A stretch of 57,694 nucleotides of DNA from Acidimicrobiaceae bacterium (GTDB lineage: Bacteria; Actinomycetota; Acidimicrobiia; Acidimicrobiales; RAAP-2): contig PMLJ01000032.1 of the NCBI GenBank assembly GCA_003158855.1, positions 1-57,694 on the forward strand. Direction: 5' to 3'. The notes below the pieces were generated by a model. The model saw only the letters and a list, made by a program, of their open reading frames with translations. It searched no databases and was not told the origin of the DNA. This document shows positions 16,676 through 52,202 of this stretch, one piece after another. The position numbers and the translations under genes were made by a program. The number at the start of each line of letters is the position of its first letter. Positions within the stretch are counted from its first letter, which is position 1.

Positions 16676-16986
16676 TGCAGGTGGTACACGAGCGCTGAGG
16701 TAACGGCCGCGGCGACGACGACGACCGGGAAGGGCGCCTTCGCGAAGAGGGCGCAGAGCGCCGCCAACACCCCGGCGAGGCGGTGGTCGATGACGACGTG
16801 GGTCTTCACGACCAGGGCTTGGGCGACGACCAGCGCGCTGAGCAGAGAGATCGGAATCAACGCGTTGATGCGCTGCAAACGCGGGTGGGCGAACCAGCGT
16901 TCGGGCACCGAGTGCCCCAGCATCTTGATGGTGAAGCTCAGCGAGCTCGTGCCGATCAGCACCGTCCACATCATCGAAGGACTCAC
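16672..16986 (-). CDS. azlD: AzlD-like branched-chain amino acid exporter subunit
   Basis: This 104-residue hydrophobic protein has about four helices and lies directly behind azlC, as AzlD does in other bacteria. The segment LGHSVPERWFAHPRLQRINALIPISLLSAL is typical of AzlD. The start is set at the GTG whose last bases overlap the azlC stop (GTGA); GGAGG lies about five bases upstream, and an ATG twelve bases later would need a longer spacing. The pair exports branched-chain amino acids in characterised cases. Confidence 0.85.
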   Translation of the reverse strand: MSPSMMWTVLIGTSSLSFTIKMLGHSVPERWFAHPRLQRINALIPISLLSALVVAQALVVKTHVVIDHRLAGVLAALCALFAKAPFPVVVVAAAVTSALVYHLH

Positions 16987-26316: not shown

Positions 26317-27123
26317 GTGGACTCGCTTCCTCTCTTCGAGAACGACCTGGGTGAACCAGGGGTCATTCAAGGGCACATGCTGCACTCGAAGGACGTCGTG
26401 ATCCCCCACGTGGCGGTGCTCTGCTTCTTCAACGAGCTGCTCGAGCAGCTCGCCAACGAGAACGTGCTCACGCCGATCTACACCCTGCGCAGCGAGATCG
26501 GCAAAAATCACGTCTACGAGTTCACCAGCGACTTCGGCACCGTCGCCGTGGTGCACCCCGGCGTCGGTGCGCCGCTCGCCGCGGGGTTCGTCGAGGAGAT
26601 GGCGGCCCTCGGTGTGACCACCTTCGTGGCGTGCGGCGGCGCCGGCGCCCTCGTGGAGGACCTGGCCCTGGGCCACGTGATGATCGTCTCCTCGGCGCTG
26701 CGCGACGAGGGGACGAGCTTCCACTACGCGCCGCCGAGCCGAATCATCGAGGCGGACCAGGTCGGGGTGAGGGTGCTCGAGGCGACGCTCCACGAACTCG
26801 ACGTTCCCTTCTACGTGGGCCGGACCTGGACGACCGACGCCTTTCTCCGTGAGACGCGCAGCCGGGTCCGGCGCCGCATTGACGAAGGCTGCACCATGGT
26901 CGACATGGAGTCGTCCGCGTTCATCGCCGTCTCCCAGTTCCGCCGACTCCGCTTCGCCCAGCTGCTGTACGCCGGCGATTCGTTGGCTGGGGGCGAGTGG
27001 GACTCGCGACACTGGGAGCACGCCCGCGGAGTTCGTGAGCATCTCTTCTACGTCGCCGCCCACGCCGCCCTGGAGCTTCACAAGACGCCCGGCCATCCCT
27101 CCGGCGACCCCCCCACCAACTAG
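26317..27123 (+). CDS. nucleoside phosphorylase (uridine/purine phosphorylase-like)
   Basis: This 268-residue protein belongs to the PNP/UDP phosphorylase superfamily. VVHPGVGAPLAAGFVEEM and FVACGGAGALVEDLALGHVMIV form the phosphate and ribose pocket, and TMVDMESSAFIAV holds the ribose-binding Met-Glu. The base specificity cannot be decided. The GTG follows AAAGGG at 26304-26309. It is the last gene of the apparent sdh operon, and a hairpin lies just behind it before the convergent mdh. Confidence 0.87.
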   Translation: MDSLPLFENDLGEPGVIQGHMLHSKDVVIPHVAVLCFFNELLEQLANENVLTPIYTLRSEIGKNHVYEFTSDFGTVAVVHPGVGAPLAAGFVEEMAALGVTTFVACGGAGALVEDLALGHVMIVSSALRDEGTSFHYAPPSRIIEADQVGVRVLEATLHELDVPFYVGRTWTTDAFLRETRSRVRRRIDEGCTMVDMESSAFIAVSQFRRLRFAQLLYAGDSLAGGEWDSRHWEHARGVREHLFYVAAHAALELHKTPGHPSGDPPTN

Positions 27124-27136
27124 CGGTGCAATAGAA

Positions 27137-27166
27137 CGGGCCGCCGGTAATCATCCCGGCGGCCCG
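27137..27166. terminator. hairpin between convergent nucleoside phosphorylase and mdh genes
   Basis: A GC-rich stem CGGGCCGCCGG/CCGGCGGCCCG with a seven- or eight-base loop lies between the two convergent stops. There is no clear T-run on either strand, so it would be an atypical or bidirectional terminator. Confidence 0.55.
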
Positions 27167-27188
27167 CATCTCTATAGCCGTTAGCTCC

Positions 27189-28178
27189 TTAGATGAGCCC
27201 CAGGGCGCGGACCTCGTCGCGCTCACTGACCAACTCGTCGGTCGTGATCTTGATGCGGCCGGCCGCGAACTCGTCGATCGTGAAGCCTTCCTTCACCTTC
27301 CAGTCGCCCTTGCCGTCGGACGTGATCGGGAACCCGAAGGTGCGCCCTTCGACGACGCCGTACTCACCGTGACTGGTGACGCCCACCGAGACGCAGTCGT
27401 CGCCGGCCGTGGGGTTCACGAGACTAACGACGGTGTCGATGGCGGCATTCGCCGCCGAGGCCGCTGAGCTGGCACCGCGGGCCTCGATGATCGCCGCACC
27501 GCGCTTCTGCACGGTCGTGATGAAGTCGCCGCGCAGCCAGTCGTGGTCCGAGATCACGTCGGGAACGAGCGTTGCGCCGATCGTCGCGTTCGCGAAGTCC
27601 GGGAATTGGGTGGCCGAGTGGTTTCCCCAGATCGCCAGGTTCTTGACATCCTTCACGGGCAGGCCGGCCTTCTTCGCCAGTTGGGTCTCGGCACGGTTCT
27701 GGTCAAGGCGCGTCATGGCGAACCAGCGATCAGCGGGGATCTCCGGGGCGTTCGAGCGCGCTATCAGGCAGTTCGTGTTGCACGGATTGCCGACCACCAA
27801 GACGCGCACGTCGCTCGACGCGTTGGCGGCGATGGCGCGACCCTGCGGCTTGAAGATGCCTCCGTTGACGTTGAGCAGGTCGCCGCGCTCCATGCCGGCC
27901 TTGCGCGGGATCGAGCCCACCAGCAGCGCCCACGAGGTATTCGTGAAGGCTTGGTTGAGGTCGCTCGTCGCCTCAATGCCGGCGAGCAGCGGGAAGGCGC
28001 AGTCGTCGAGCTCCATCACGACACCCTCGAGTGCCTTCATGGCCGGTTCGATTTCGAGCAACCGCAGTACTACTGGCGTGTCAGGGCCGAGCAACTGGCC
28101 CGAGGCGATGCGAAACAACAACTGGTAGCCGATCTGGCCGGCGGCGCCGGTCACAGTGACGTGAACTGGGGTAGTCAT
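27189..28178 (-). CDS. mdh: malate dehydrogenase
   Basis: This 329-residue NAD-dependent enzyme converts malate and oxaloacetate. It begins with the Rossmann segment [20 protein letters not shown], and the catalytic His lies in [12 protein letters not shown]. The region [14 protein letters not shown] is the family's substrate/cofactor loop. The length is normal for the cytosolic-type bacterial enzyme. It is the last gene of the ten-gene minus-strand run and follows icd by 20 nt, so two TCA enzymes are probably cotranscribed. Confidence 0.96.
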
Positions 28179-40619: not shown

Positions 40620-42899
40620 TCACGCCCGACGAAGCGGCGTCATCGCGAGTACCAGTTGCTTGGTGCCGTGCTCGTCGAAACTGACCGCGGCGCGGCAGTG
40701 CGAGCCTTCCCCGTCCACCTTCACGACGGTGCCAAGGCCGTAACGATCGTGCACGACACGGTCGCCCACCACGAGGCCGAGCATCTCCGCGCCCGTCGAG
40801 CGCACCGGCGGTGCGGCGCCGGTTCCAAAGGCCCGGCCTTGGGTGAAGTCGGTGCGCCGCCCGACGAACCCGTCATCGTCGCGAGTGAAGCTCGACCGCC
40901 GCGACGGCAGCGTCGCCGAAATGTCGTGCACGAGTTCGGGCGGGATCTCCTGGAGGAATCGGCTCGCGATGGCGTCGACGTGATTGCCCCACATCGTGCG
41001 GCTCCACGCATGGGTGAGGGCCAGGTGACGCATGGCCCGCGTGATGCCGACGTAGCAAAGGCGGCGCTCTTCCTCGAGCTCGGCCTCGTCGGAGAGCGCG
41101 CGACGGTGCGGGAAGATCGTCTCCTCGAGTCCAGTGATGACCACGGCCGGGAATTCCAGTCCTTTCGCCACGTGCAGCGTCATCAAGGAGATCGCCCCCG
41201 CGCCGCCGTCGAGTTGGTCCGAGTCGGCGACCAGCGCCATGCGCTCGACGAAGTCCATCAAAGTGTCGTACTGCGACGCCGCGGACGCGAGTTCGCCGAG
41301 GTTCTCGAGCCGTGAGTACGCCTCGTCGGAGTTCTCCGCTCGCAGTGCGTCGCCCATGCCCGACTCGCGAACAATGGCGTCGATCATCTCTCGGGGGCTC
41401 AGGTCATTCGCCAGGGCACGAAGTTCGTCGAGCATGAACGAGAACTTCTCGGCGCCGGCGAGCGCCCTCGCGGTGAGCCCGGCGGCTTTGGCGTAGTGCG
41501 ACGCCTCGGCGAAGGAGAGCCCGTTCTCCGCGGCGTAGGCGCCGAGCTTCGCCTGGGCCGATTCGCCGATGCCCCGCTTGGGCTCGTTGATGACTCGCCG
41601 GGCCGAGGCCTCGTCGCGAGGGTTGACGATGAGCCGCGCGTACGCCAGGGCGTTCTTGATCTCCTTGCGGTCGTAGAACCGCATCCCCGAGATGACGCGG
41701 TAGGGGATGTTGGCGCGCAGCATCTCCTCTTCCAGCACGCGACTCTGCGCGTTTGTGCGGTAGAACACGGCCATCTGGTTCCAGTGGAGCTCGGACTCCG
41801 CGCGCAGGCGCCGCAGCTCGCTCGCGACCCACCGGCCCTCGTCGTACTCGTCGCCCGCCCGGTAGAGGCGGATCTTCTCTCCCTCGGCGCCCTCGGTGAA
41901 GAGGTTCTTCGCGTGTCGACTGGCGTTCTTCGAGATGACGGCGTTCGCGGCGTCGAGGATCGTCTGGGTCGAACGGAAGTTCTGCTCGAGCAGTATCACG
42001 TCCGAGTCGGGAAAGCGCTGCTCGAACTGCAGGATGTTGCGCACATCAGCCGCGCGGAAACGGTAGATCGACTGGTCCGAGTCGCCCACCACGCAGAGGT
42101 TGCGGTGCTTGGCGGCGAGCATCATCACCAGCTCGTTCTGCACGCCGTTGGTGTCCTGGAACTCGTCGACGAGCAGGTACTTGAACCGGTTCTGGTACGA
42201 GTTCAGCACGTCGGGGTCGCGCTTCATCATCTCGACCGCGTTCAGCAGGAGGTCGTCGAAGTCCATGGCGTTCGCGAGTTTGAGCCGGTCGGCGTAGAGG
42301 CGGTAGATCTCCGCCACCCGACGATGGTGCGGGTCATCGCCGTGGCCCGCGGCCTCGTAGGCGGCCGGGGAAAGCATCTCGTTCTTCGCCGCCGAGATCG
42401 CCCCCGCCACACTGCGCGGCGAGAGTCGCTTGGTGTCGAGGTTGAGCTCCTTCATGATCCGTTCGACGGCGCTCTCGGCGTCGCCGGCGTCGTAGATCGT
42501 GAAGCCGCGCTGGAACCCGAGCACGTCCGCGTTGGCGCGCAACATGCGCAGGCAGGCCGAGTGAAACGTCGAGACCCACATGCGGTCCGCCTCTTCACCC
42601 ACGAGATCGATAACGCGCCGGCGCATCTCATCGGCGGCCTTGTTGGTGAAGGTGATCGCCATGATCTCCCAAGGTCTCGCGTCGCCCGACGCGAGAATGT
42701 GGGCGATACGCCTCGTGAGGACGCGGGTCTTGCCCGACCCCGCTCCCGCGATGACGAGCAACGGGCCGCCGCGCTGCTCCACCGCTTGGCGTTGGGGTTC
42801 GGTGAGTCCCTCGAGCAACGCCGACGGGTCGAGGCGCGCCGACGGGTCCACCGGATCGTTACCCCACAGTGACGCGTCAGAGAAGGAAGTCCTCTTCAC
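40620..42899 (-). CDS. pcrA: UvrD/PcrA superfamily I DNA helicase
   Basis: This roughly 760-residue 3'-5' helicase has Walker [22 protein letters not shown], motif [30 protein letters not shown] and the C-terminal [20 protein letters not shown]. It acts in repair and replication conflict resolution. I set the start at the GTG whose tail overlaps the guaA stop (GTGA at 42896-42899); another GTG two codons upstream (42905) would add two residues. Its overlap with guaA suggests cotranscription. Confidence 0.94.
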
Positions 42900-44437
42900 T
42901 CCCACTCAATGGTGCCCGGCGGCTTGCTCGTCACGTCGAGCGCCACACGATTCACGCCTTCGACCTCGCGGATGAGTCGATTGGCGATCAACTCGATCAC
43001 GTCGTAGGGAAGCCGAGCCCAGTCCGCGGTCATCGCGTCGTCGCTCGTCACCGCCCGGATGATTATCGGGTACGCGTAGGTTCGTCCATCTCCCATAACG
43101 CCCACAGTACGCACCACCGGTAACACCGCAAAACTCTGCCAGAGTTCGCGGTAGAGGCCGGCCTTCTTGATCTCGTCCACGACCACGTGGTCGGCGTTGC
43201 GAAGAATCTCGGCGCGCTCGCGGGTCACCTCGCCGACAATGCGAACCCCGAGGCCGGGGCCCGGGAACGGCTGGCGCCATACGATCTCGGCGGGCAGGCC
43301 GAGTTCCTCGCCGACGTGGCGGACCTCGTCCTTGAAGAGACTGCGCAGCGGTTCGACGAGGTCGAAGGACAGGTCCTCGGGCAGCCCGCCCACGTTGTGG
43401 TGGCTCTTGATGTTGGCGGCGTGGCCCGAACCCGACTCGATGACGTCGGGATAGAGCGTGCCCTGAACCAGGAAACGCGGACCGTCGCCGCCCTTGCCCA
43501 GCTCGCGCGCCACGGTTTCGAACTCGCGGATGAACAGTTCGCCGATGATCTTTCGCTTGCGCTCGGGGTCGGTGACGCCGGCGAGCGCGTCGAAGAATCG
43601 ATCCTGCGCCTTCACGTGGATCAGTTCCACGCCGAACTGACGGGTGAACGTCTCTTCGATCTGGTCGCCCTCGTTCTTGCGCATGAGGCCGGTGTCGACG
43701 AAGACGCAGGTCAACTGCGATCCGACGGCCTTGGTGACGAGCGCCGCCGCCACCGCCGAATCGACGCCGCCCGAGAGAGCGCAGAGCACCTTCTCGTCCC
43801 CGACCTGCGTGCGAATCGCGGCGACCTGGTCTTCGATGATCGAGGTGTTGGTCCACGTCGGGGGGATGCCCGACACGTGGTGCAAGAAATCGGACAACAA
43901 CTCCTGCCCGCGTTCCGAGTGGGCGACTTCGGGGTGGAACTGGACCGCGTACAGGCGCCGCGAGGAGTCCTCCATCGCCGCGACGGGCGCCTCGCGCGAC
44001 GAGGCGGTGACGGCAAAGCCGCTCGGCGCCGCGGCGATGGCGTCGCCGTGGCTCATCCACACCGGACTCGCCGTCGGCCACTCGCTCATCAACTGCGAAG
44101 AGCCCTGACGGGTCAACTCGGTGCGGCCGTATTCGCCCGCTCCGGTTCTCGCCACGTCCCCGCCCAGCTGCAACGCCATGAGCTGCGCGCCGTAGCAGAT
44201 GCCGAGGATCGGGATGCCGAGTTCGTAGATCACGGGATCGAGCGAGGGAGCGGGAACCTCGTAGACCGACTTCGGCCCGCCCGAGAGGATGATCGCGGCG
44301 GGCGACTTCGCGCGGACCTCGTCGGCCGTGATGGTGCTCTGGACGATCTCTGAATAGACGTGGGCTTCGCGCACACGTCGGGCTATGAGTTGGGCGTACT
44401 GGGCCCCGAAGTCAACAACGAGAACGTTCGAGCTCAA
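42896..44437 (-). CDS. guaA: GMP synthase (glutamine-hydrolysing)
   Basis: This 513-residue enzyme makes GMP from XMP. The glutamine amidotransferase domain has the catalytic Cys in [13 protein letters not shown] and His/Glu in [10 protein letters not shown]. The ATP pyrophosphatase domain shows [15 protein letters not shown]. The C-terminal dimerisation domain ends PPGTIEWE. The start overlaps guaB3 by four bases, so the guanine branch genes are coupled, with pcrA following. Confidence 0.97.
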
Positions 44438-45597
44438 TGGCCCATGCCTACGCCCTGCGAGCGCTGCAACTGCTTTCCTTCAGTCTGGATCGACGGGGCG
44501 AGCATGATCTCGGCCTTCTGGAACTCCTTCAAGGTCTCGTAACCGCACGTGGCCATCGAGGTTCGAAGCGCGCCGAACAAGTTGAGCCGGCCGTCGTTCT
44601 CGTGAGCTGGCCCGAGGAGAACTTCCTTCAACGTGCCCCTCACCTGCGTACGAACGCGGGTGCCGCGTGGCAGCGTCGGGTGGAACGTCGCCATTCCCCA
44701 GTGGAAACCGCGAGCGGGCGCTTCGACCGCGCTCGTGAGCGGCGAGCCGATCATCACCGCGTCAGCGCCGCAGGCAATGGCCTTTGCGATGTCGCCGCCC
44801 TTGCTCATGCCGCCATCGGCGATGACGTGGACGTAAACGCCCGTCTCGTCGAGGTGACGCATCCGCGCGCCGGCGACGTCAGCGATCGCGGTCGCCTGGG
44901 GCACGCCGATTCCGAGCACGGCACGTGAGGTGCAGGCGTTGCCGGGGCCGACCCCGACGAGCACGCCGGCGGCACCGGTGCGCATGAGGTGAAGTGCGGC
45001 CTGGTAGCTCGCGCAGCCGCCCACGATGACCGGCAGTTCGAACTCGCGGATGAACTTCTTCAAGTTCAGCGGCTCCACGGTCTTGGAGACGTGTTCGGCG
45101 GAGACGACCGTCCCCTGGATCACCAGGATGTCGAGGCCGGCGTCGAGGATGGTCTTCGCCATCCAGTCGGTGCGCGCGGGCGTCACCGACGCCGAGATCG
45201 TGACACCCGAGGCCTTCATCTGCTTGATCCGCTCCGCGACGAGCTCGAGCTTGATCGGCTCGAGGTACATCTGCTGCATGCGGGCGGTCGCCTTGTCGTC
45301 ATCGAGTTCGGTGATCTCGTCGAAGAGCGAGGTGGGGTCCTCGTAGCGGGTCCAGAGGCCTTCGAGATTCAAGACGCCGAGCCCGCCGAGGCGACCGAGC
45401 TCGATGGCGGTCGTTGGCGACATCGCGCCGTCCATCGCCGAACCCAGCAACGGCAGTTCGAACTTGTAGGCGTCGATCTGCCACGAGATGTCGACATCCT
45501 CGGGATCGCGGGTGCGCCGTGACGGGACAATCGCGATGTCGTCAAAGCCGTACGCCTGACGCGCCGATTTGTAGATACCGATCTCTACTTCCGCCAT
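44434..45597 (-). CDS. guaB3: GuaB3 family IMP dehydrogenase-related protein
   Basis: This 387-residue TIM barrel lacks the CBS domains of canonical IMPDH, as expected for the GuaB3 subfamily. [15 protein letters not shown] is its start signature and [18 protein letters not shown] contains the IMPDH-like catalytic Cys. Some GuaB3 proteins have IMPDH activity, while in actinobacteria it is usually a second paralogue. It precedes guaA with a four-base overlap. A canonical guaB, if present, lies outside the window. Confidence 0.93.
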
Positions 45598-45665
45598 GGT
45601 GACCTCCGCCTAAGAAAATGCGCCCCGAAACCGGGTGTGCTTTCCTTCCAATCTACTGGACGAAG

Positions 45666-46466
45666 TTAGGACCAAACTCGGCGCGCTTCGGGCCACTCAA
45701 CCCCGGTTGCGACACAGAGCAGTTCGGTGAGCACCCGGGCGGTGGCCCCCCAGACGATGTCACCGGGAACCTGGAAGAAGTAGATCGGAAAGTAACCCTC
45801 TGGATCGACACCGGGGCGCACGTTCTCGCGGCGCCAGCGCTCTTCGAGGAATGCTTCGTCGGCGACCAGTTCGGCAAGGGAGGTCGTGAAGACCCTCTCC
45901 ACCTCGGCGGGGTCCGCGGTGAGGGTGGGACGACCCTCGAGAACCCCAATTACCGGCCAAATCGCCGATCCCGAGGCAAATGTCACAATTGGACTGAGCC
46001 AACCCACCGGCTCAACCATTGAAGGGAGCAGGCCGACCTCCTCCTCAGCCTCGCGCAGCGCCGTCTGGATTGGCGTCTCTTGCCCGTCGCTTCTACCGCC
46101 CGGCAGGGCGATCTCGCCGCGGTGGCTACGAAGCTTGAAGGACCTTCGGGTCAGAATCACGTGCGTTTCGCCATCCTCTTCGAACAGCGCGACGAGCACC
46201 GCGGACTTCCGGGTGATGGGTTCGAACGCGCCGTCGGCCACGCCGGCCATCTCCACGGGGTCGCCCGGAATCGTCGAGATATCGAAGGTGCGTCCACTGT
46301 CCCTCAGGCGGTTCACCACCAGTTCGAGGGTGAAACCCATTCGTTGCGAGGGTGCGAGTTGCGACCAGGGAGCGGGCGCGCCACGGCGGATGTCGTCGGG
46401 CTCCGGGATCACCTGCGGATACGCATGGTCTCCGAAGCGCGACGGCCACTCGTCGTTACGCGTCAT
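45666..46466 (-). CDS. NUDIX hydrolase, CoA-pyrophosphatase-like
   Basis: This 266-residue protein contains a NUDIX box, GGRSDGQETPIQTALREAEE followed by EVGL, matching G-x5-E-x7-REUxEExGU. The preceding LRSHRGEIALPGG is typical of the CoA diphosphatase (NudL/YeaB-like) group. It would hydrolyse a nucleotide diphosphate derivative, perhaps CoA. ATG 46466 is chosen because GGGAG lies about six bases upstream; a longer frame exists. It is divergent from the MMPL gene. Confidence 0.88.
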   Translation of the reverse strand: MTRNDEWPSRFGDHAYPQVIPEPDDIRRGAPAPWSQLAPSQRMGFTLELVVNRLRDSGRTFDISTIPGDPVEMAGVADGAFEPITRKSAVLVALFEEDGETHVILTRRSFKLRSHRGEIALPGGRSDGQETPIQTALREAEEEVGLLPSMVEPVGWLSPIVTFASGSAIWPVIGVLEGRPTLTADPAEVERVFTTSLAELVADEAFLEERWRRENVRPGVDPEGYFPIYFFQVPGDIVWGATARVLTELLCVATGVEWPEARRVWS

Positions 46467-46552
46467 TGAATCTCCCCTAGTGTGGAAGCGCACAAAGTGC
46501 ACGACTGAATTTTACTCGGTTTCCCTGCTTTTCAACCCTGGAGAAAGTCCTC

Positions 46553-48715
46553 ATGAAGACCCTTGCGCGCTCGAGCGTTCGCCGCCGTTGGTATGTCCTC
46601 GTCGGATGGATAGTGCTGTTCATCGGCATCAACGTCGCCGCCCAGACCGCCGGATCCGCCTACTCCAACAACTTCACTTTTCCCGGCACCAACTCCACCC
46701 ACGCCCAGGCGCTCCTCGCCGCCGGCTTCACCCAGAAATCGGGTGACGCCGACCAGATCGTCTTCCACGTGACCACTGGGACCTTGGCCAAGGACGAGTC
46801 AAAGATTCAGAAGGTACTCGCCAAGATCGCCAAGCTCCCCTCGGTCGCCAGCGTCTCATCGCCCTTCTGCCCCGCCAGCGAAGCGACGTGCCTCGGCGCC
46901 ACGCAGATGAGCAAGAACCACCAGATCGCCTACGCCGTCGTGAGCTTCTCCAAGCAGGCCTTCCAACTGAAGCTCCCCCAGATCAAGGCTGTCGAGACGG
47001 TCGGCGAGACCGTTCGTTCGAGCTCACTCGAGGTCGAGTTCGGCGGCAACGCCTTCGGCCAGCTCGACGCCCAGAGGGGAAGTCCCGGCGAGATCTTCGG
47101 ACTCATCGCGACCGCCATAGTGCTCGTTCTGGCCTTCGGTTCCTTCTGGGCCATGCTCCTGCCCCTCGGGGTTGCCCTCTTCGCGCTCGGCATAGCTTCC
47201 GCCGCGACCACCCTGATGAGCCACGGCCTCGCCATCGCCCAGTTTGCGCCAATACTGGGCTCGCTGATCGGACTGGGTGTTGGAATTGACTACGCGCTCT
47301 TCATCGTCACGAGAAGCCGGCAGGGCTTGAAACGCGGTCTGAGCGTCGAAGACTCGATCATTACGGCGGTGAATACATCCGGGCGCGCGGTGCTCTTCGC
47401 CGGCTCAACGGTGTGCGTGGCCCTGCTCGGCATGCTGGTGCTCCGACTTTCGTTCCTCAACGGCGTCGCCATCGCCGCGTCGGTGACGGTCTTGATCACG
47501 ATGTTCGCCTCGCTGACGTTGCTGCCGGCGCTGTTGGGCTTTCAAAAGCACCATGCCCTCAGCCGCAAGGAGCGTCGCTCGCTCGCCGCCAACGGGCCCG
47601 AGCCGGCGGTCGTAGAAGGCGGATGGCAGCGTTGGGCGAAGTTCGTCGCGCGTCACCCCCGGGTTCTGTCCGCGGCCGCGCTCGCGCTCATCGTCACCGC
47701 GACAGTCCCCTACTTCTCGCTGCACCTGGGCAGTTCCGACCAGGGGTCCGACCCCGCGAGCTCGACGACCCGCCACGCCTACGACCTCCTGGCCCAGGGT
47801 TTCGGGCCGGGCTTCAACGGGCCGCTTACGGTCGTCGGTGCCATCCACTCGTCGGCCGACAAGACCACCATGGAGAGACTCGACGCGACGCTACAGGGCA
47901 AGGCTGACATTGTCGCGGTGAGCCCGCTCATCATGAACCCCAAGGGAACGGTCGGTCTCATCACCGTTGTTTCGAAGTCGAGTCCCCAGGACACCGCCAC
48001 CTCGAATCTGATCACGACAATTCGCAACAAGTACATCCCGGCCGCGACCTCGACCACGCATACGGCGATCTACGTCGGCGGCATCACCGCCATCTTTGGC
48101 GACTTCGCGTCGGTACTGAAGAGCAAGCTCCCTCTCTTCGTCGGCGTCATTGTGCTGCTCGGCTGCCTGCTGTTGATGGTCGCCTTCCGGAGCGTTCTGA
48201 TCCCGCTCACCGCCGCCGTCATGAACCTGCTCGCCGCCGCGGCATCCTTCGGGCTCGTCGTCGCGGTGTTCCAGTGGGGCTGGGGCAGCAACATCATCGG
48301 AGCTGGCAGCGGCCCGGTGGAGTCCTTCTTGCCGATCATCATGATCGCCATCCTGTTCGGGCTCTCCATGGACTACCAGGTCTTCCTCGTCTCTCGCATG
48401 CACGAGGAATGGCTGAACACCGGAAGCAACGAGGAAGCGATTGTCCGCGGCCAGGCCAACACCGGCCAGGTCATCACGGCCGCCGCCCTCATCATGATCT
48501 GCGTGTTCTCCTCGTTCGCCTTCGGGGGCCAGCGGATCATCGCCGAGTTCGGCATTGGCCTCGGGGGCGCGGTGCTGATGGATGCGTTCATCCTGCGAAC
48601 CGTGCTCGTGCCATCCTTGATGCACTTCTTCGGCAAGGCGAACTGGTGGATGCCCAAGTGGCTCGACCGTGCCGTGCCGCACCTTGCGCTTGAGGCGACC
48701 GAAGACGTCGACTGA
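46553..48715 (+). CDS. MMPL family RND transporter
   Basis: This 720-residue membrane transporter has two repeats of a periplasmic loop plus a six-helix bundle. The transmembrane motifs GLGVGIDYALFIVTRSRQG (first half) and LFGLSMDYQVFLVSRMHEEW (second half) hold the proton-relay Asp-Tyr pairs of MMPL proteins. MMPL transporters export lipids or siderophores; the substrate here is unknown. A perfect hairpin lies nine bases after the stop, after which coding density drops sharply. Confidence 0.94.
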   Translation: MKTLARSSVRRRWYVLVGWIVLFIGINVAAQTAGSAYSNNFTFPGTNSTHAQALLAAGFTQKSGDADQIVFHVTTGTLAKDESKIQKVLAKIAKLPSVASVSSPFCPASEATCLGATQMSKNHQIAYAVVSFSKQAFQLKLPQIKAVETVGETVRSSSLEVEFGGNAFGQLDAQRGSPGEIFGLIATAIVLVLAFGSFWAMLLPLGVALFALGIASAATTLMSHGLAIAQFAPILGSLIGLGVGIDYALFIVTRSRQGLKRGLSVEDSIITAVNTSGRAVLFAGSTVCVALLGMLVLRLSFLNGVAIAASVTVLITMFASLTLLPALLGFQKHHALSRKERRSLAANGPEPAVVEGGWQRWAKFVARHPRVLSAAALALIVTATVPYFSLHLGSSDQGSDPASSTTRHAYDLLAQGFGPGFNGPLTVVGAIHSSADKTTMERLDATLQGKADIVAVSPLIMNPKGTVGLITVVSKSSPQDTATSNLITTIRNKYIPAATSTTHTAIYVGGITAIFGDFASVLKSKLPLFVGVIVLLGCLLLMVAFRSVLIPLTAAVMNLLAAAASFGLVVAVFQWGWGSNIIGAGSGPVESFLPIIMIAILFGLSMDYQVFLVSRMHEEWLNTGSNEEAIVRGQANTGQVITAAALIMICVFSSFAFGGQRIIAEFGIGLGGAVLMDAFILRTVLVPSLMHFFGKANWWMPKWLDRAVPHLALEATEDVD

Positions 48716-48723
48716 GTATGGAC

Positions 48724-48759
48724 GCGCGTAGCCCGCGCGTCGTCGCGCGGGCTACGCGC
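48724..48759 (+). terminator. perfect 16-bp hairpin after the MMPL gene
   Basis: GCGCGTAGCCCGCGCG at 48724-48739 is exactly inverted at 48744-48759 with a TCGT loop. There is no T-run, so it may be an atypical terminator or a palindromic repeat. It marks the boundary to the decayed region. Confidence 0.6.
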
Positions 48760-48869
48760 CCGTGTTGAAGGCGTCTGCAGGTAATCCCACGCAGGAGAAA
48801 TGTCGGCAATCCGCCGCGGCGTGGTGAGGTCGACTGTCATGCGCGAACCGGCGGCACCCTGCTGACAAC

Positions 48870-49067
48870 ACTCGTCTCGGTGGCCGAGACGTCCTTGGAG
48901 GCGTGACGGAGAACGCGGGCGAGTGTAAGGTCCTCTCGGGAGGCCGCAACGGACCGTTGACGCTCCGAGCCGCCGACGCCCATCTCCAGGTGGTGCTGGC
49001 GACCGGCGAGGCGGTCCCGCTCGTCGCCAGACTCGGTCCCTGGTGGGTAAGCCGGATCTACGACTGA
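48870..49067 (+). pseudogene. C-terminal remnant of an ImuB-like protein, copy 1
   Basis: Reading the frame that ends at the TGA (49065-49067) gives LTLRAADAHLQVVLATGEAV followed by PLVARLGPWWVSRIYD. This matches the usual end of ImuB, the Y-family-like mutasome adaptor (an LQVVxxDGxxxLLxxxxGxWWxxxxYD pattern). Nothing of the catalytic region precedes it: upstream is the MMPL gene and a hairpin. A DnaE2-like start overlaps the stop (TGATG), as in genuine imuB-dnaE2 operons. I read it as a decayed remnant. Confidence 0.65.
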
Positions 49068-49250
49068 TGACGGTCTACGCCGAACTTCACGCGCACTCGC
49101 GACTCAGCTTCTCGGGCGGAGCGGGCGGCCCGAAGAGCTCGTCGCCGAAGAAGCGCAAGCCCCAATGACGGCGATGACCGTCGCGGTCTGCTCGCTTGGC
49201 GCGCGCGGCGCGAGTACCTGCGTGGGGTGGCGGCGCGGCTGCGCGACGAC
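49067..49250 (+). pseudogene. N-terminal remnant of error-prone DNA polymerase DnaE2, copy 1
   Basis: The frame begins MTVYAELHAHSRLSF, the PHP-domain start of DnaE2 polymerases. After about 20 codons a frameshift is needed to continue with PEELVAEEAQAPMTAM, which fits the next conserved segment; the original frame stops soon after. Only about 5 percent of a normal dnaE2 is present. It overlaps the ImuB-like tail by one base. Confidence 0.7.
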
Positions 49251-49391
49251 CACGCTCGCCACCGTCAGCGCGAGTTCCAAGGAGGCGACCCCGGTCGACT
49301 TCGCCCCCGCACGCGCGCACGAGCGTCACAACTCCGACGGTTTCCGCGTTGCTTCAGACACCGTCGACCGCCGTTCGACGAGCGGACATCC

Positions 49392-49476
49392 GATTCACGG
49401 TTCGACCAGCGAGAACGGCATTTTCATCGTCGTTGGCCCTCCGACGGGCCATTCCGTGATTCACGGTTCGACCAGC
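49392..49476. repeat. 19-bp direct repeat, 66-bp period
   Basis: GATTCACGGTTCGACCAGC occurs at 49392-49410 and again at 49458-49476. The intervening sequence is not obviously repeated. The pair lies between the two mutasome remnants and may mark the local duplication or slippage that produced them. Confidence 0.75.
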
Positions 49477-49639
49477 CATAACGTGAAACCCGTTTCTGCT
49501 CTATTCAACCTCGTTCGCGCGTTCGACGTGGGTGGTGTGAACTCGAAGGCCGATCGGCGCCACCTGCGCACGACGACAATACTCGTCACTACCGTCAATG
49601 TGGGCTTCGACGAGATGACCTCGGTCGACTTCATGCCGC

Positions 49640-49752
49640 CCGGTTGGAGGACATCTCATGCCGCGATGGTTCTCATCGTCACCCGCGACGCGGGTACTGG
49701 TGGATCAACGCTCGACGGCCGCTGGCGGGCAGTCGGGATCTGCGACCAATGA
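49640..49752 (+). pseudogene. C-terminal remnant of an ImuB-like protein, copy 2
   Basis: The frame ending at TGA 49750-49752 reads HAAMVLIVTRDAG and then LDGRWRAVGICDQ. This aligns with copy 1 (HLQVVLATGEA and GPWWVSRIYD) and with ImuB C-termini. Part of the region between is missing. A DnaE2-like start overlaps by four bases (ATGA). Confidence 0.6.
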
Positions 49753-49880
49753 CGGTCTACGCCGAACTTCACGCATACTCGGGATTCAGCTTCCTCGACG
49801 GAGCGAGCGACCCCGGAGGACTCGTCGCCGAAGTCGTGCGAGTCCTGACGACGGTGGCCACCGTCACAGCCTGCTCGCCC
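49749..49880 (+). pseudogene. N-terminal remnant of DnaE2, copy 2
   Basis: The frame reads MTVYAELHAYSGFSFLDGAS and continues DPGGLVAEVVRVLTTVATVT, a better preserved DnaE2 N-terminus than copy 1 and without its frameshift. It then diverges from any DnaE2 sequence I can recognise, so the rest of the polymerase is absent. Confidence 0.7.
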
Positions 49881-49885
49881 AACAC

Positions 49886-49960
49886 GCCCGCAGGAGGAGC
49901 TTCCATGTCGCGATGGTCATCACCCTCACCCGCGACACGGGTTGGTTCCGCGTCCGAAGC
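49886..49960 (+). pseudogene. third partial copy of the ImuB-tail segment
   Basis: The DNA around GAGGAGCTTCCATGTCGCGA and the following ATCACCCTCACCCGCGACAC resembles 49650-49700 (GAGGACATCTCATGCCGCGA; ATCGTCACCCGCGACGC). Translated it gives HVAMVITLTRDTGWF, aligning with HAAMVLIVTRDAG of copy 2. It has no following DnaE2 start. Confidence 0.5.
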
Positions 49961-49961
49961 C

Positions 49962-50210
49962 TCAGTGCGCCGCCATGGCCATCGGATTGGGCGTCGGAGG
50001 GGCGATCCTGGAGAGAGTGTTGCTGTCCACGTGAGAAAATGGCGTCTGAAGTCCGGGTATCTCGAGAACAGCCTCCTCCTCGTATGACCACGTTCCGTCG
50101 GTGGCGATCGAGAAGCGAAGCTTGAAACCGACCGTGCGAAAGGCCCGGTCCAGGATTGGCTTCGAAAGGATCCCGTAGACCGGCGATCCGATGCCGCCTC
50201 GACTTCGAAC
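49962..50210 (-). pseudogene. orphan C-terminal coding remnant
   Basis: The minus strand holds about 80 clean codons ending in TGA (49962-49964), including GSPVYGILSKPILDRAFRTV, then GFKLRFSIATDGTWSYEEEA, VLEIPGLQTPFSHVDSNTL and APPTPNPMA. The composition looks like a real protein tail with no start codon; an in-frame stop precedes it. I cannot name the family. It is probably the 3' remnant of a gene lost by deletion. Confidence 0.5.
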
Positions 50211-50433
50211 TCGGCGTCACGGGATCGGCGCGACCCGAGGCGAGCAGCGCCTGCCCGCGAGGGATGGCGAGGAGTTGGCAGCCGACCCACCGGCGCTGGA
50301 GGAGATCGTTCGAACCGCTGGCAACTGAACAATGGTGATGATCCGCCTCCACGGTGAATCAAGGAGAGGCGATGGTGTCTCGCTGCGAAACCAGGGCGCT
50401 GTGCTCAATCCGGGGCCAGCCACAAACTCACAA

Positions 50434-50481
50434 GCCAGTTATCCCTTCGCATCGCAAAGATCGCGTCGCGGGATAACTGGC
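50434..50481. repeat. 12-bp inverted repeat with 24-nt spacer
   Basis: GCCAGTTATCCC at 50434-50445 is perfectly inverted as GGGATAACTGGC at 50470-50481. It lies 27 bases behind the stop of the minus-strand gene at 50509, so it could be that gene's terminator, but the loop is long and no T-run follows on the minus strand. A protein-binding or recombination site is equally possible. Confidence 0.7.
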
Positions 50482-50508
50482 GTGAGTGCAGAAGACCCAG
50501 TAACAGGA

Positions 50509-51015
50509 CTACCTTCTGAAGTTTCCATTCCAGCTCGAGCCACCACCGCTGTGGTTACCCCGGCCGAAGGATCCACGGCCGCCGAACGAATGGTTGGCGC
50601 CACCTGAATGGTGACCGCAGTCTCTGCCGTTAGAGCCAGACTGGGCGGGAAGGACCTTGATCGAGGTGACGGTGACGGGGGTCGTCGCCGACAGCACCAG
50701 GACGACTCGGTCCGGGCTGGCCAACGTCACGCCGGCATCAAGGCCGGTGATCGTGGTCGCCGCGGTCAGCGCGTAGGTCGTTGGGGTCGTGCTGCCCTTG
50801 GCCAGGATCGAGATTGACGTGCCGGCCACGTAGGTCGAGACGACACCGAAGGCCCAACTCCCCTGGGACTGTGTTGTGCTGTCATGCTGGTAGCGCGATG
50901 AGTGATGACCGCGCTGTGAAGCCGAGGCGATGCCGGCGGTACTCGCCGCAAGGCCCACGCTTAATAGGGTCGCAACGACAACTCGCCCGGCCACCTTCGT
51001 CTTGATCCTGAACAT
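50509..51015 (-). CDS. secreted protein, DUF5666-like, with Gly/His/Ser-rich tail
   Basis: This 168-residue protein has a signal peptide (basic start MFRIKTKVAGR, hydrophobic core, probable cut near ASA-SQRG). It continues with a short beta-rich part: GVVSTYVAGTSISIL, TYALTAATTITGL and VVLVLSATTPVTV. The pattern resembles DUF5666 domains. The C-terminus is rich in Gly, His, Ser and Arg and could bind metal. ATG 51015 follows AAGGAG; a longer open frame exists. Function unknown. Confidence 0.75.
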   Translation of the reverse strand: MFRIKTKVAGRVVVATLLSVGLAASTAGIASASQRGHHSSRYQHDSTTQSQGSWAFGVVSTYVAGTSISILAKGSTTPTTYALTAATTITGLDAGVTLASPDRVVLVLSATTPVTVTSIKVLPAQSGSNGRDCGHHSGGANHSFGGRGSFGRGNHSGGGSSWNGNFRR

Positions 51016-51258
51016 TCGTGCTCCTTCATTGGATCCACCCAAGATGATCTCGGACTTGACAAAGTTTCGCATCCGATGTTGAGAAACCCCTGCGAAAGAT
51101 CTGTGGGCGCCCTCCGACAACCCCAAATTCTGGACAATTCCACGTGGTAATCAGTCGGTGCAGGAGAAATCAAGAAGTTCAGCCTCAAGCGTGGATCCGA
51201 TTCGCGAACCTTGAACTCGAGGGCCGCCAAACGATAGCGCCCACTGAGAGTGCCACTG

Positions 51259-51852
51259 CTACTTGATCTTCGCCACTGCCTTGGCGGCCAGTCCCAGAAA
51301 CTGACTCAGATTCACGGAGGGATAATTGCCTTCCAGGATTCCCAGAATGACGCTGCCCTTGCGCACGATCAGGTAGTCGGCCTTCACTGTTACGTGCTTG
51401 CCGACCACAACGATCGAATACGCCACGCTCGCGTTTCCGTAGCGGGAAAGGCTCAGCCGACGAACGGTCCCTTTCACCGGGTAGCCCCCAAGGTCCCCAG
51501 CCACACTCCGGCACCGTGCGATCGTCGAAGCGATCTTCTTGTACGCCGAGGTGGCACTTGAGTACGTCGTGATGGTCTCGTCAAACAGCGGCAGATCCCC
51601 GCGGCCCAAGTAGAAGACCTGCACGCGGTGGGTCTCCTTGACGCCCTTTGGCTCGAGGAGACTCGCCAGACAACCGAGCCTCGGATCCCCGCGCGGCACA
51701 CTGGCCGTCCAACCCGCCGGCACTTGGCCAATGCTCAGCGATTCAGCCCGGAGTCGAGCAACAGAGACCGTCGCCGCTGATCCGACACCCACCGACGAAA
51801 GCGTGATGAGAACCGCTGAAACCAACGCAGACACCGTAACAAGACGCTTCAT
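51259..51852 (-). CDS. secreted protein of unknown function
   Basis: This 197-residue protein has a clear signal peptide (MKRLVTVSALVSAVLITLSS, probable cut after GSA). The mature part has two cysteines (GCLASLL and ARCRSV) that could form a disulfide, and an alternating pattern ending in a hydrophobic C-terminal helix. The layout resembles extracytoplasmic sensor-like domains such as PknH_C, but I cannot confirm it. It is 243 nt downstream of nothing coding and lies upstream of another secreted-protein gene on the same strand. Confidence 0.7.
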   Translation of the reverse strand: MKRLVTVSALVSAVLITLSSVGVGSAATVSVARLRAESLSIGQVPAGWTASVPRGDPRLGCLASLLEPKGVKETHRVQVFYLGRGDLPLFDETITTYSSATSAYKKIASTIARCRSVAGDLGGYPVKGTVRRLSLSRYGNASVAYSIVVVGKHVTVKADYLIVRKGSVILGILEGNYPSVNLSQFLGLAAKAVAKIK

Positions 51853-52202
51853 CGCACTCCTTCATCTCACCTCCACATCTACACCTCTGGGGGGAAGAAA
51901 TGTTAGGTACCTTGGTCACTTCTTGCTCGATGGAGTCGAGGCCAGCGCTGTCTCACCCGTGAAGGAAACGAGCGCCCGCGGATCCGGCGCATCGTCCGCG
52001 AACTCCATCATCAGCGACAGGTGGTTCGCACCGGTGTCAACCCTTGATTGGCTGTTCACGCAGTTCCAACTTCATGAGTCGAAGAAGGTTGATGCCAGAG
52101 GTCCAGCGTGACCGATGTGGCGAACCGCGCTCGCTGGCTCAAGACATGACAACTGCCGCAAGTCTTCAACTCCAGAGCCCGACGCCGAGTCCGGCCGCCA
52201 GA
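51853..52202. other. non-coding gap with a short coding-like remnant
   Basis: This 350-nt gap has no convincing gene. On the minus strand, 51916-52071 is open and reads GANHLSLMMEFADDAPDPRA before a TGA, which looks like a protein tail; an in-frame stop precedes it and the only ATGs leave 30 or 31 codons. No promoter or hairpin is evident. Confidence 0.4.

Follow-up and report, generated by a model that had tools for sequence, protein, structure and literature searches.

The closest described system to the locus studied here is the ImuA'-ImuB-DnaE2 operon of the actinobacterial type, and PMC6511836 places ImuB2 in the Actinobacteria. In the open-access literature, as far as the beginnings of abstracts show, we found no account of a duplicated imuB/dnaE2 junction. 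The window, i.e., the whole stretch of 57,694 nt that was analysed, is contig C12 of a 2.72-Mb draft genome. At 48893-49942 on the + strand it carries a chain of pieces whose homologues are the imuB 3' end and two segments of the dnaE2 PHP domain. The chain is probably a dead fragment that became dispersed from a tandemly duplicated, decaying junction of the imuB/dnaE2 operon. Its parts are the following (coordinates of the window):

48893-48963, + strand: decayed piece of the dnaE2 interior, approximately codons 120-144, PHP domain, fused to the imuB tail downstream
48961-49067, + strand: imuB 3' end, copy 1, without start and without body (nhmmer 48969-49078, E=1.5e-16; blastn match to contig C8)
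49067-49160, + strand: dnaE2 head, copy 1, extending over codons 1 to ~31 and lacking 1 nt (nhmmer 49054-49156, E=3.2e-21; alignment)
49161-49720, + strand: spacer Y, aligning co-linearly with the live-operon spacer, without sign of coding
49392-49417, + strand: 26-nt repeat, copy 1 (92% to copy 2)
49458-49483, + strand: 26-nt repeat, copy 2 (92% to copy 1)
49669-49748, + strand: decayed imuB 3' end, copy 2 (nhmmer 49669-49760, E=0.0033)
49749-49843, + strand: dnaE2 head, copy 2, codons 1 to ~31 (nhmmer 49735-49843, E=4.2e-26)
49844-49886, + strand: start of a second spacer unit, matching C8 and the relative G029
49893-49942, + strand: distal part of the second spacer unit (a repeat of 49646-49695 with 80% identity over 50 bp, E=3.5e-8)

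The nhmmer profiles were built from 42 loci of relatives in 37 genomes, five of which were entered twice, and the E-values refer to the whole window. With these profiles, the two imuB-tail/dnaE2-head junctions of a preliminary description of this DNA proved to be real, the first tail and both heads with the E-values given above. The alignment of the two junction regions which it had suggested gives 76% identity over 163 bp. The stop/start overlaps it had noted are likewise present: the imuB TGA at 49065-49067 overlaps the ATG at 49067 (TGATG), and the ATG at 49749 overlaps the TGA at 49750 (ATGA). Both heads also lose their similarity to dnaE2 in the same way, at profile position ~106-110, but this edge corresponds to codon ~31 and not to residue 40 or so, as was first stated. 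A third ImuB-tail fragment had been placed near 49.9 kb; the repeat exists, but it is the distal spacer piece of the last line above, and its descent from imuB is indirect.

The dnaE2 interior piece had been overlooked. It is 77% identical to the live dnaE2 over 71 bp (blastn, E=6.7e-9), corresponds to dnaE2 profile positions 375-445 (nhmmer, E=0.0017 over the whole window), and is recovered by tblastn with 48.8% identity over 41 amino acids (E=9.5e-6, spanning 48855-48977). The piece abuts the first imuB tail with a join at 48963. The second imuB tail is more degenerate; its frame ends in GRWRAVGICD, compared to GRWWVVGIYD in ImuB (7 of 10 residues identical; tblastn E=0.78). Between the junctions, spacer Y contains an imuB-like block at 49214-49257 (77%, E=1.6e-5) and consists of two degenerate units, possibly derived from imuB tails, which flank the twice-repeated 26-nt motif. 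Within this genome, the 17-nt core of this motif occurs with 0 mismatches only in the window segment and in the operon on C8. Two interpretations of the 26-nt motif were considered: that of a decayed junction finds no support, the score being reached by 62-376 of 400 shuffles, and that of a dispersed or CRISPR-like repeat was dropped, as the motif has 0-mismatch occurrences at these two loci only, with 9 matches at 2 mismatches compared to 11 for a reversed-pattern control.

At the window site we found neither imuA nor the body of imuB nor a polymerase domain, but only the imuB 3' end and the head and interior pieces of dnaE2. A search for ImuA at 48600-50600 gave no convincing match (best E=0.14). 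In line with the earlier statement that a catalytic region is missing from the segment, PF07733, the catalytic domain of C-family polymerases, is absent from C12 altogether and matches only at C9 and C8. The preliminary description had staked its assignment on a profile search for ImuB and DnaE2. Here the outcome was divided: Pfam yielded nothing above cut-off for the translated window pieces, which goes against the assignment, whereas the clade-specific profiles recovered both imuB and dnaE2. No SOS-type box was found near the pieces. The only perfect CGAAC-N4-GTTCG box of the window lies at 16890-16903, away from them, and boxes with at most 1 mismatch number 12 in the window compared to 5.5 expected (1 of 100 shuffles reaches 12). 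A scan for the sigma-70 consensus and for T-tailed hairpins gave 0 promoters or terminators both in window 48600-50100 and in the corresponding region of C8 (locus L003, 11300-12300). The window copy is presumably inert.

C-family polymerases are encoded twice in the genome: a DnaE1-like enzyme on C9 (1199-codon frame), and DnaE2 on C8, where imuA', imuB and dnaE2 are encoded together in a complete operon. A search of the rest of the genome for these genes, proposed in the preliminary description, thus returned an intact operon. ImuA' matches NF058630 (E=8e-32, 110 bits, cut-off 65) and DnaE2 matches PRK05672 (E=0, 1315 bits, cut-off 939). The ImuB of approximately 360 amino acids reveals weak Y-family matches (best E=2e-6) and no Pfam match, and is therefore named by its position and these weak matches. 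A short ImuB is common in the genus, many of the relatives examined having a gene of ~360 codons; here the gene occupies L003 12183-13262, with weak Pol IV matches only. A divergent SRAP gene is accompanied by a perfect CGAAC-N4-GTTCG box, CGAACATATGTTCG, at L003 13912-13925; it has the form of the actinobacterial SOS (LexA) motif and is predicted to be of the SOS type. Since the longest imuA' frame contains the box within its first codons, the true imuA' start is probably located downstream of it. Boxes with at most 1 mismatch are not enriched at the C8 locus (3 compared to 1.7 expected). Given a complete operon with an SOS-type box on C8, the loss of inducible mutagenesis that had been proposed does not follow from the window.

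The live operon itself has an unusual junction. On C8, the dnaE2 head overlapped by the imuB stop is a decoy, and the real start of dnaE2 is located 689 nt downstream; a spacer of 0.59 kb lies between imuB and the real dnaE2, following the decoy head. The same arrangement occurs in two relatives, G029 and G017, and the distances from the decoy to the real start are 689, 683, and 693 nt in the three carrier operons. The decoy head on C8 is 88% identical to the real head over 103 bp; the corresponding identities are 88-90% in C8 and G029, and 82% in G017. Window 48961-49840 aligns to the C8 stretch with 70% identity over 914 columns, while 49716-49886 matches the C8 decoy head and spacer start with 78% over 174 columns, and 49734-49878 matches G029 with 83%. 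Judged by sequence, the window segment is a second, orphan copy of the junction structure of the live operon. This is in good agreement with the earlier proposal that a junction fragment was duplicated and not that a single locus suffered a simple deletion, as the same structure occurs in the live operon and the spacer is moderately similar to imuB tails.

From the decoy start to the real dnaE2 start, a chimeric frame of 230 codons is found on the - strand of C8 (L003 11491-12180), at which automatic annotation could miscall dnaE2 or a hypothetical gene. The frame is open over 230 codons in C8 and 228 codons in G029, ending with ATGA on the dnaE2 start; in G017 it carries a frameshift. As a further difference between the operon loci, G029 has approximately 550 bp upstream of the operon (contig C54 of G029, ~26648-27199; L066 14648-15200) which are absent from C8.

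Long spacer matches were obtained only in our genome (G000, both loci), G029, and G017, both in a search of 99 genomes of the genus, with at most 5 candidates scored per genome, and in a set of 61 genomes, of which 37 including our own belong to the genus, with at most 8 scored. The remaining matches cover the head/junction part only or are short, chance-like stretches. The 99-genome search gave no match in 43 of 99 genomes, in some of which a junction was seen in the 61-genome search, and hence is not proof of absence. Because spacer searches cannot establish absence, the junction was read directly. Of 43 loci examined, 42 (37 genomes) have a dnaE2 head, the exception being locus L064. In 41 of these 42, imuB runs directly into dnaE2 through a TGATG overlap, and at least 120 codons stay open; the remaining locus, which begins at a contig end, has 105. 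Absence of the spacer holds for the 37 genomes in which the junction was read. The three carriers form a clade with a support of 0.982 in a tree of 40 sequences. Among the named genomes scanned, a single record contains the spacer, Acidimicrobiaceae bacterium isolate palsa_657, with 100% identity to the G029 frame. Altogether, the spacer was seen at two loci of our genome, in which 40 of 65 candidates were scored, and once in each of two relatives, at dnaE2, which suggests a single origin in one lineage of the Acidimicrobiia. An intermediate array of several units was not found.

The genomic surroundings of the window segment were compared with the same relatives. G029 matches window 41386-48715 with 97% identity up to the stop of an MMPL gene, beyond which other genes follow in G029. 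The match resumes at window 52121 (91%), 16 kb onward in the G029 contig, so that 3.4 kb of the window (48718-52120) stand where G029 has 16 kb; the latter presumably contain genes for a TauE/SafE-like protein and for a branched-chain amino-acid ABC transporter, named from their translations. A 36-bp near-perfect palindrome (94%) occupies window 48724-48759, right after the MMPL stop and at the end of synteny with G029, whose sequence differs there. In eight further relatives, including G017, no match to the window pieces was found within 2.7-6 kb beyond the MMPL gene. As the segment is located well inside the contig and both flanks are syntenic, mis-assembly or contamination is unlikely.

Regarding the origin of the spacer, a profile of the four spacers matches imuB in each of the three carrier operons, at a point ~230-280 nt upstream of the imuB stop (E=6.5e-4, 0.0026, and 0.022). 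It also matches a non-imuB place in G018 (one genome, two overlapping loci) with E=0.004, and only the first imuB match stands out. In C8, G029, and G017, the second spacer half outscores all 400 shuffles against each of the three imuB tails, while for the window copy 25-130 of 400 shuffles reach the observed score. For the first half, the score of the window copy is reached by 0, 3, and 0 of 400 shuffles against the three tails, compared to 1-3 of 400 for G029, 9-47 for C8, and 6-28 for G017. For control, the whole spacer was reverse-complemented and compared with the C8 imuB tail, which gave scores of 30.9, 27.6, 26.7, and 36.7 (C8, G029, G017, and window); the forward second halves score 33.5, 38.4, 40.1, and 25.1 in the same order. 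The reverse-complemented stretch is about twice as long as a second half, and this raises the control score. Each live spacer contains an internal repeat of two 115-159-bp units with 60-64% identity, whereas only 47 bp (72%) were found in the window spacer. Most likely, and with moderate support from these comparisons, the spacer consists of decayed imuB tails left from surplus tandem copies of the junction, although the G018 match and the control scores leave the imuB descent insecure. An RNA element was dismissed, the Rfam matches having E-values of 0.19, 0.96, and 0.48 and lying far below the gathering score throughout.

The spacer diverges strongly. Together with the decoy head it has a distance of d=0.278 between C8 and G029, compared to a dS of 0.093 for dnaE2. 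Nine of ten stretches called intergenic at the operon locus differ by 2.2-8.4% between C8 and G029, and the tenth, with 19%, is part of the spacer; on the window side, two intergenic stretches differ by 1.5-1.8%. Within the chimeric frame (228 codons), differences fall evenly on codon positions 1, 2, and 3 (67, 56, and 61), so that no protein constraint is visible, and Pfam and PHROG matches are sub-threshold only; a constrained protein gene was thus dismissed. The relationship between copies changes along the spacer: in the first half, quartet sites join G029 with the window in 16 cases, C8 with G029 in 5, and C8 with the window in 3, whereas in the second half 27 sites join C8 with G029, compared to 5 for G029 with the window and 4 for the remaining pairing (Fisher p=1.4e-5 between halves). 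This mosaic pattern requires that several diverged copies co-existed and recombined. The spacer distance to G017 is 0.54-0.55, only 1.3-1.4 times the dS of 0.39-0.41, and constant hypermutation is therefore not needed; a sorting of old paralogous copies fits better. Hypermutation by a diversity-generating retroelement had been considered for the hypervariable spacer, but no reverse transcriptase (RVT_1) was found: PF00078 was not detected in the three carrier genomes, which are drafts, with positive controls in 3 of 14.

A tandem duplication of the junction would account for these observations as follows. In the ancestor of the three species, a junction comprising the imuB 3' end and ~31 dnaE2 codons was probably duplicated in tandem inside the operon, the first of the resulting junctions being retained by imuB and the final one by dnaE2. 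Decay would then have turned the surplus imuB tails into the ~0.59-kb spacer, while the surplus dnaE2 head would have persisted as a decoy start. Recombination between junction copies would have rendered the surviving spacers mosaic. One piece, including a dnaE2 interior/imuB tail join from another duplication step, would have reached the site downstream of the MMPL gene; the join at 48963 is presumably the expected trace of this second, longer tandem duplication. Uniform decay does not account for the decoy head, which in C8 and G029 has kept 88-90% identity to the real head although the adjacent imuB tails are barely recognisable. Consequently, one uniformly decaying duplication is insufficient, and a later conversion or a second duplication is needed. 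On this account the window segment is ordinary pseudogene debris with an unusual history.

Other explanations were weighed against this one. The preliminary description saw in the segment the "graveyard of a mutasome", i.e., a whole second operon at the window site which decayed to junction pieces, with inducible mutagenesis being lost there. The imuB and dnaE2 pieces do follow operon order and are accompanied by a piece of the dnaE2 interior, but the latter lies upstream of the imuB tail, which is the wrong order for a simple remnant. Moreover, the pieces have the same peculiar junction-spacer-junction layout as the live locus, an intact operon with a perfect SOS-type box exists elsewhere, and neither G029 nor the eight further relatives have a match to the pieces beside the MMPL gene. 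A full operon at this site hence finds no support in these genomes, and we regard it as highly unlikely. The spacer could also be a small mobile or integrative element which targets the dnaE2 5' end and whose attachment site is a dnaE2 head that it carries itself, so that dnaE2 stays whole. The right edge of the decoy head, sharp and common to every copy, would fit such an element, as would the ~103-bp direct repeats flanking the spacer and the one spacer copy elsewhere in the genome. Yet in the spacer frame no Pfam family exceeds its cut-off, PHROG matches do not fall below E=0.08, and neither a transposase nor an integrase was found; no relative was found in viral contigs or phages, and plasmids match only the dnaE2-head part, in one polymerase gene. 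As the second spacer half resembles an imuB tail and the spacer was seen nowhere but at the loci named above, we consider a mobile origin quite improbable.

The live spacer may instead act as a functional, translated bridge, whose frame of 228-230 codons keeps imuB and dnaE2 coupled and sets the dose of DnaE2, the window copy being a dead paralogue. In C8 and G029 the frame has no internal stop and terminates at the dnaE2 start, the spacing between decoy and real start is similar in the three operons, and indels are few for the divergence of some pairs, e.g., 187 substitutions to 1 between G029 and the window. Against this stand the frameshift in G017 and the lack of a third-position excess of substitutions. 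The ratio of substitutions to indels between C8 and G029, 159:4, is close to the 164:5 of nearby intergenic DNA. Avoidance of stops is weak as well, with P=0.016-0.039 in the named frame and 0.04-0.13 in any frame for the three open copies, and P between 0.02 and 0.22 when substitutions are permuted. These comparisons give weak evidence of selection on the open chimeric frame in the live operon, and we find a functional bridge unlikely, though it can be compatible with a decaying tandem duplication. A broader variant deserves little credence: the mutasome operon of the three Acidimicrobiia species would be a fast-changing, recombining imuB-dnaE2 array whose translated bridge tunes the amount of DnaE2, and the window fragment a shed unit able to recombine with the array.

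With the tandem duplication as the preferred reading, the window is no record of lost inducible mutagenesis, as a complete mutasome operon persists in the genome. An operon junction would appear to be able to duplicate without harm to either gene, leaving a decoy start which gene finders may mistake for the real dnaE2. Among the 40 genomes in which the junction was read, the three carriers alone have an interrupted imuB-dnaE2 overlap and thus offer a natural test of this translational overlap; the decoy frame of the live operon could keep ribosomes flowing to dnaE2.

The operon on C8 is a member of the actinobacterial ImuA'-ImuB-DnaE2 type, but differs from the 37 relatives read by its decoy dnaE2 head and spacer, which are absent there. 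Regarding its history, the locus compares well with a pseudogene array formed by tandem duplication with decay and recombination: both have repeated junction units, mosaic copies, and no codon constraint, and the GC content of 61-65%, compared to 71-72% for dnaE2, adds to the likeness. In contrast to a pseudogene array, the duplicated unit extends across the border between two genes in a live operon, both of which are intact, and one piece is dispersed.
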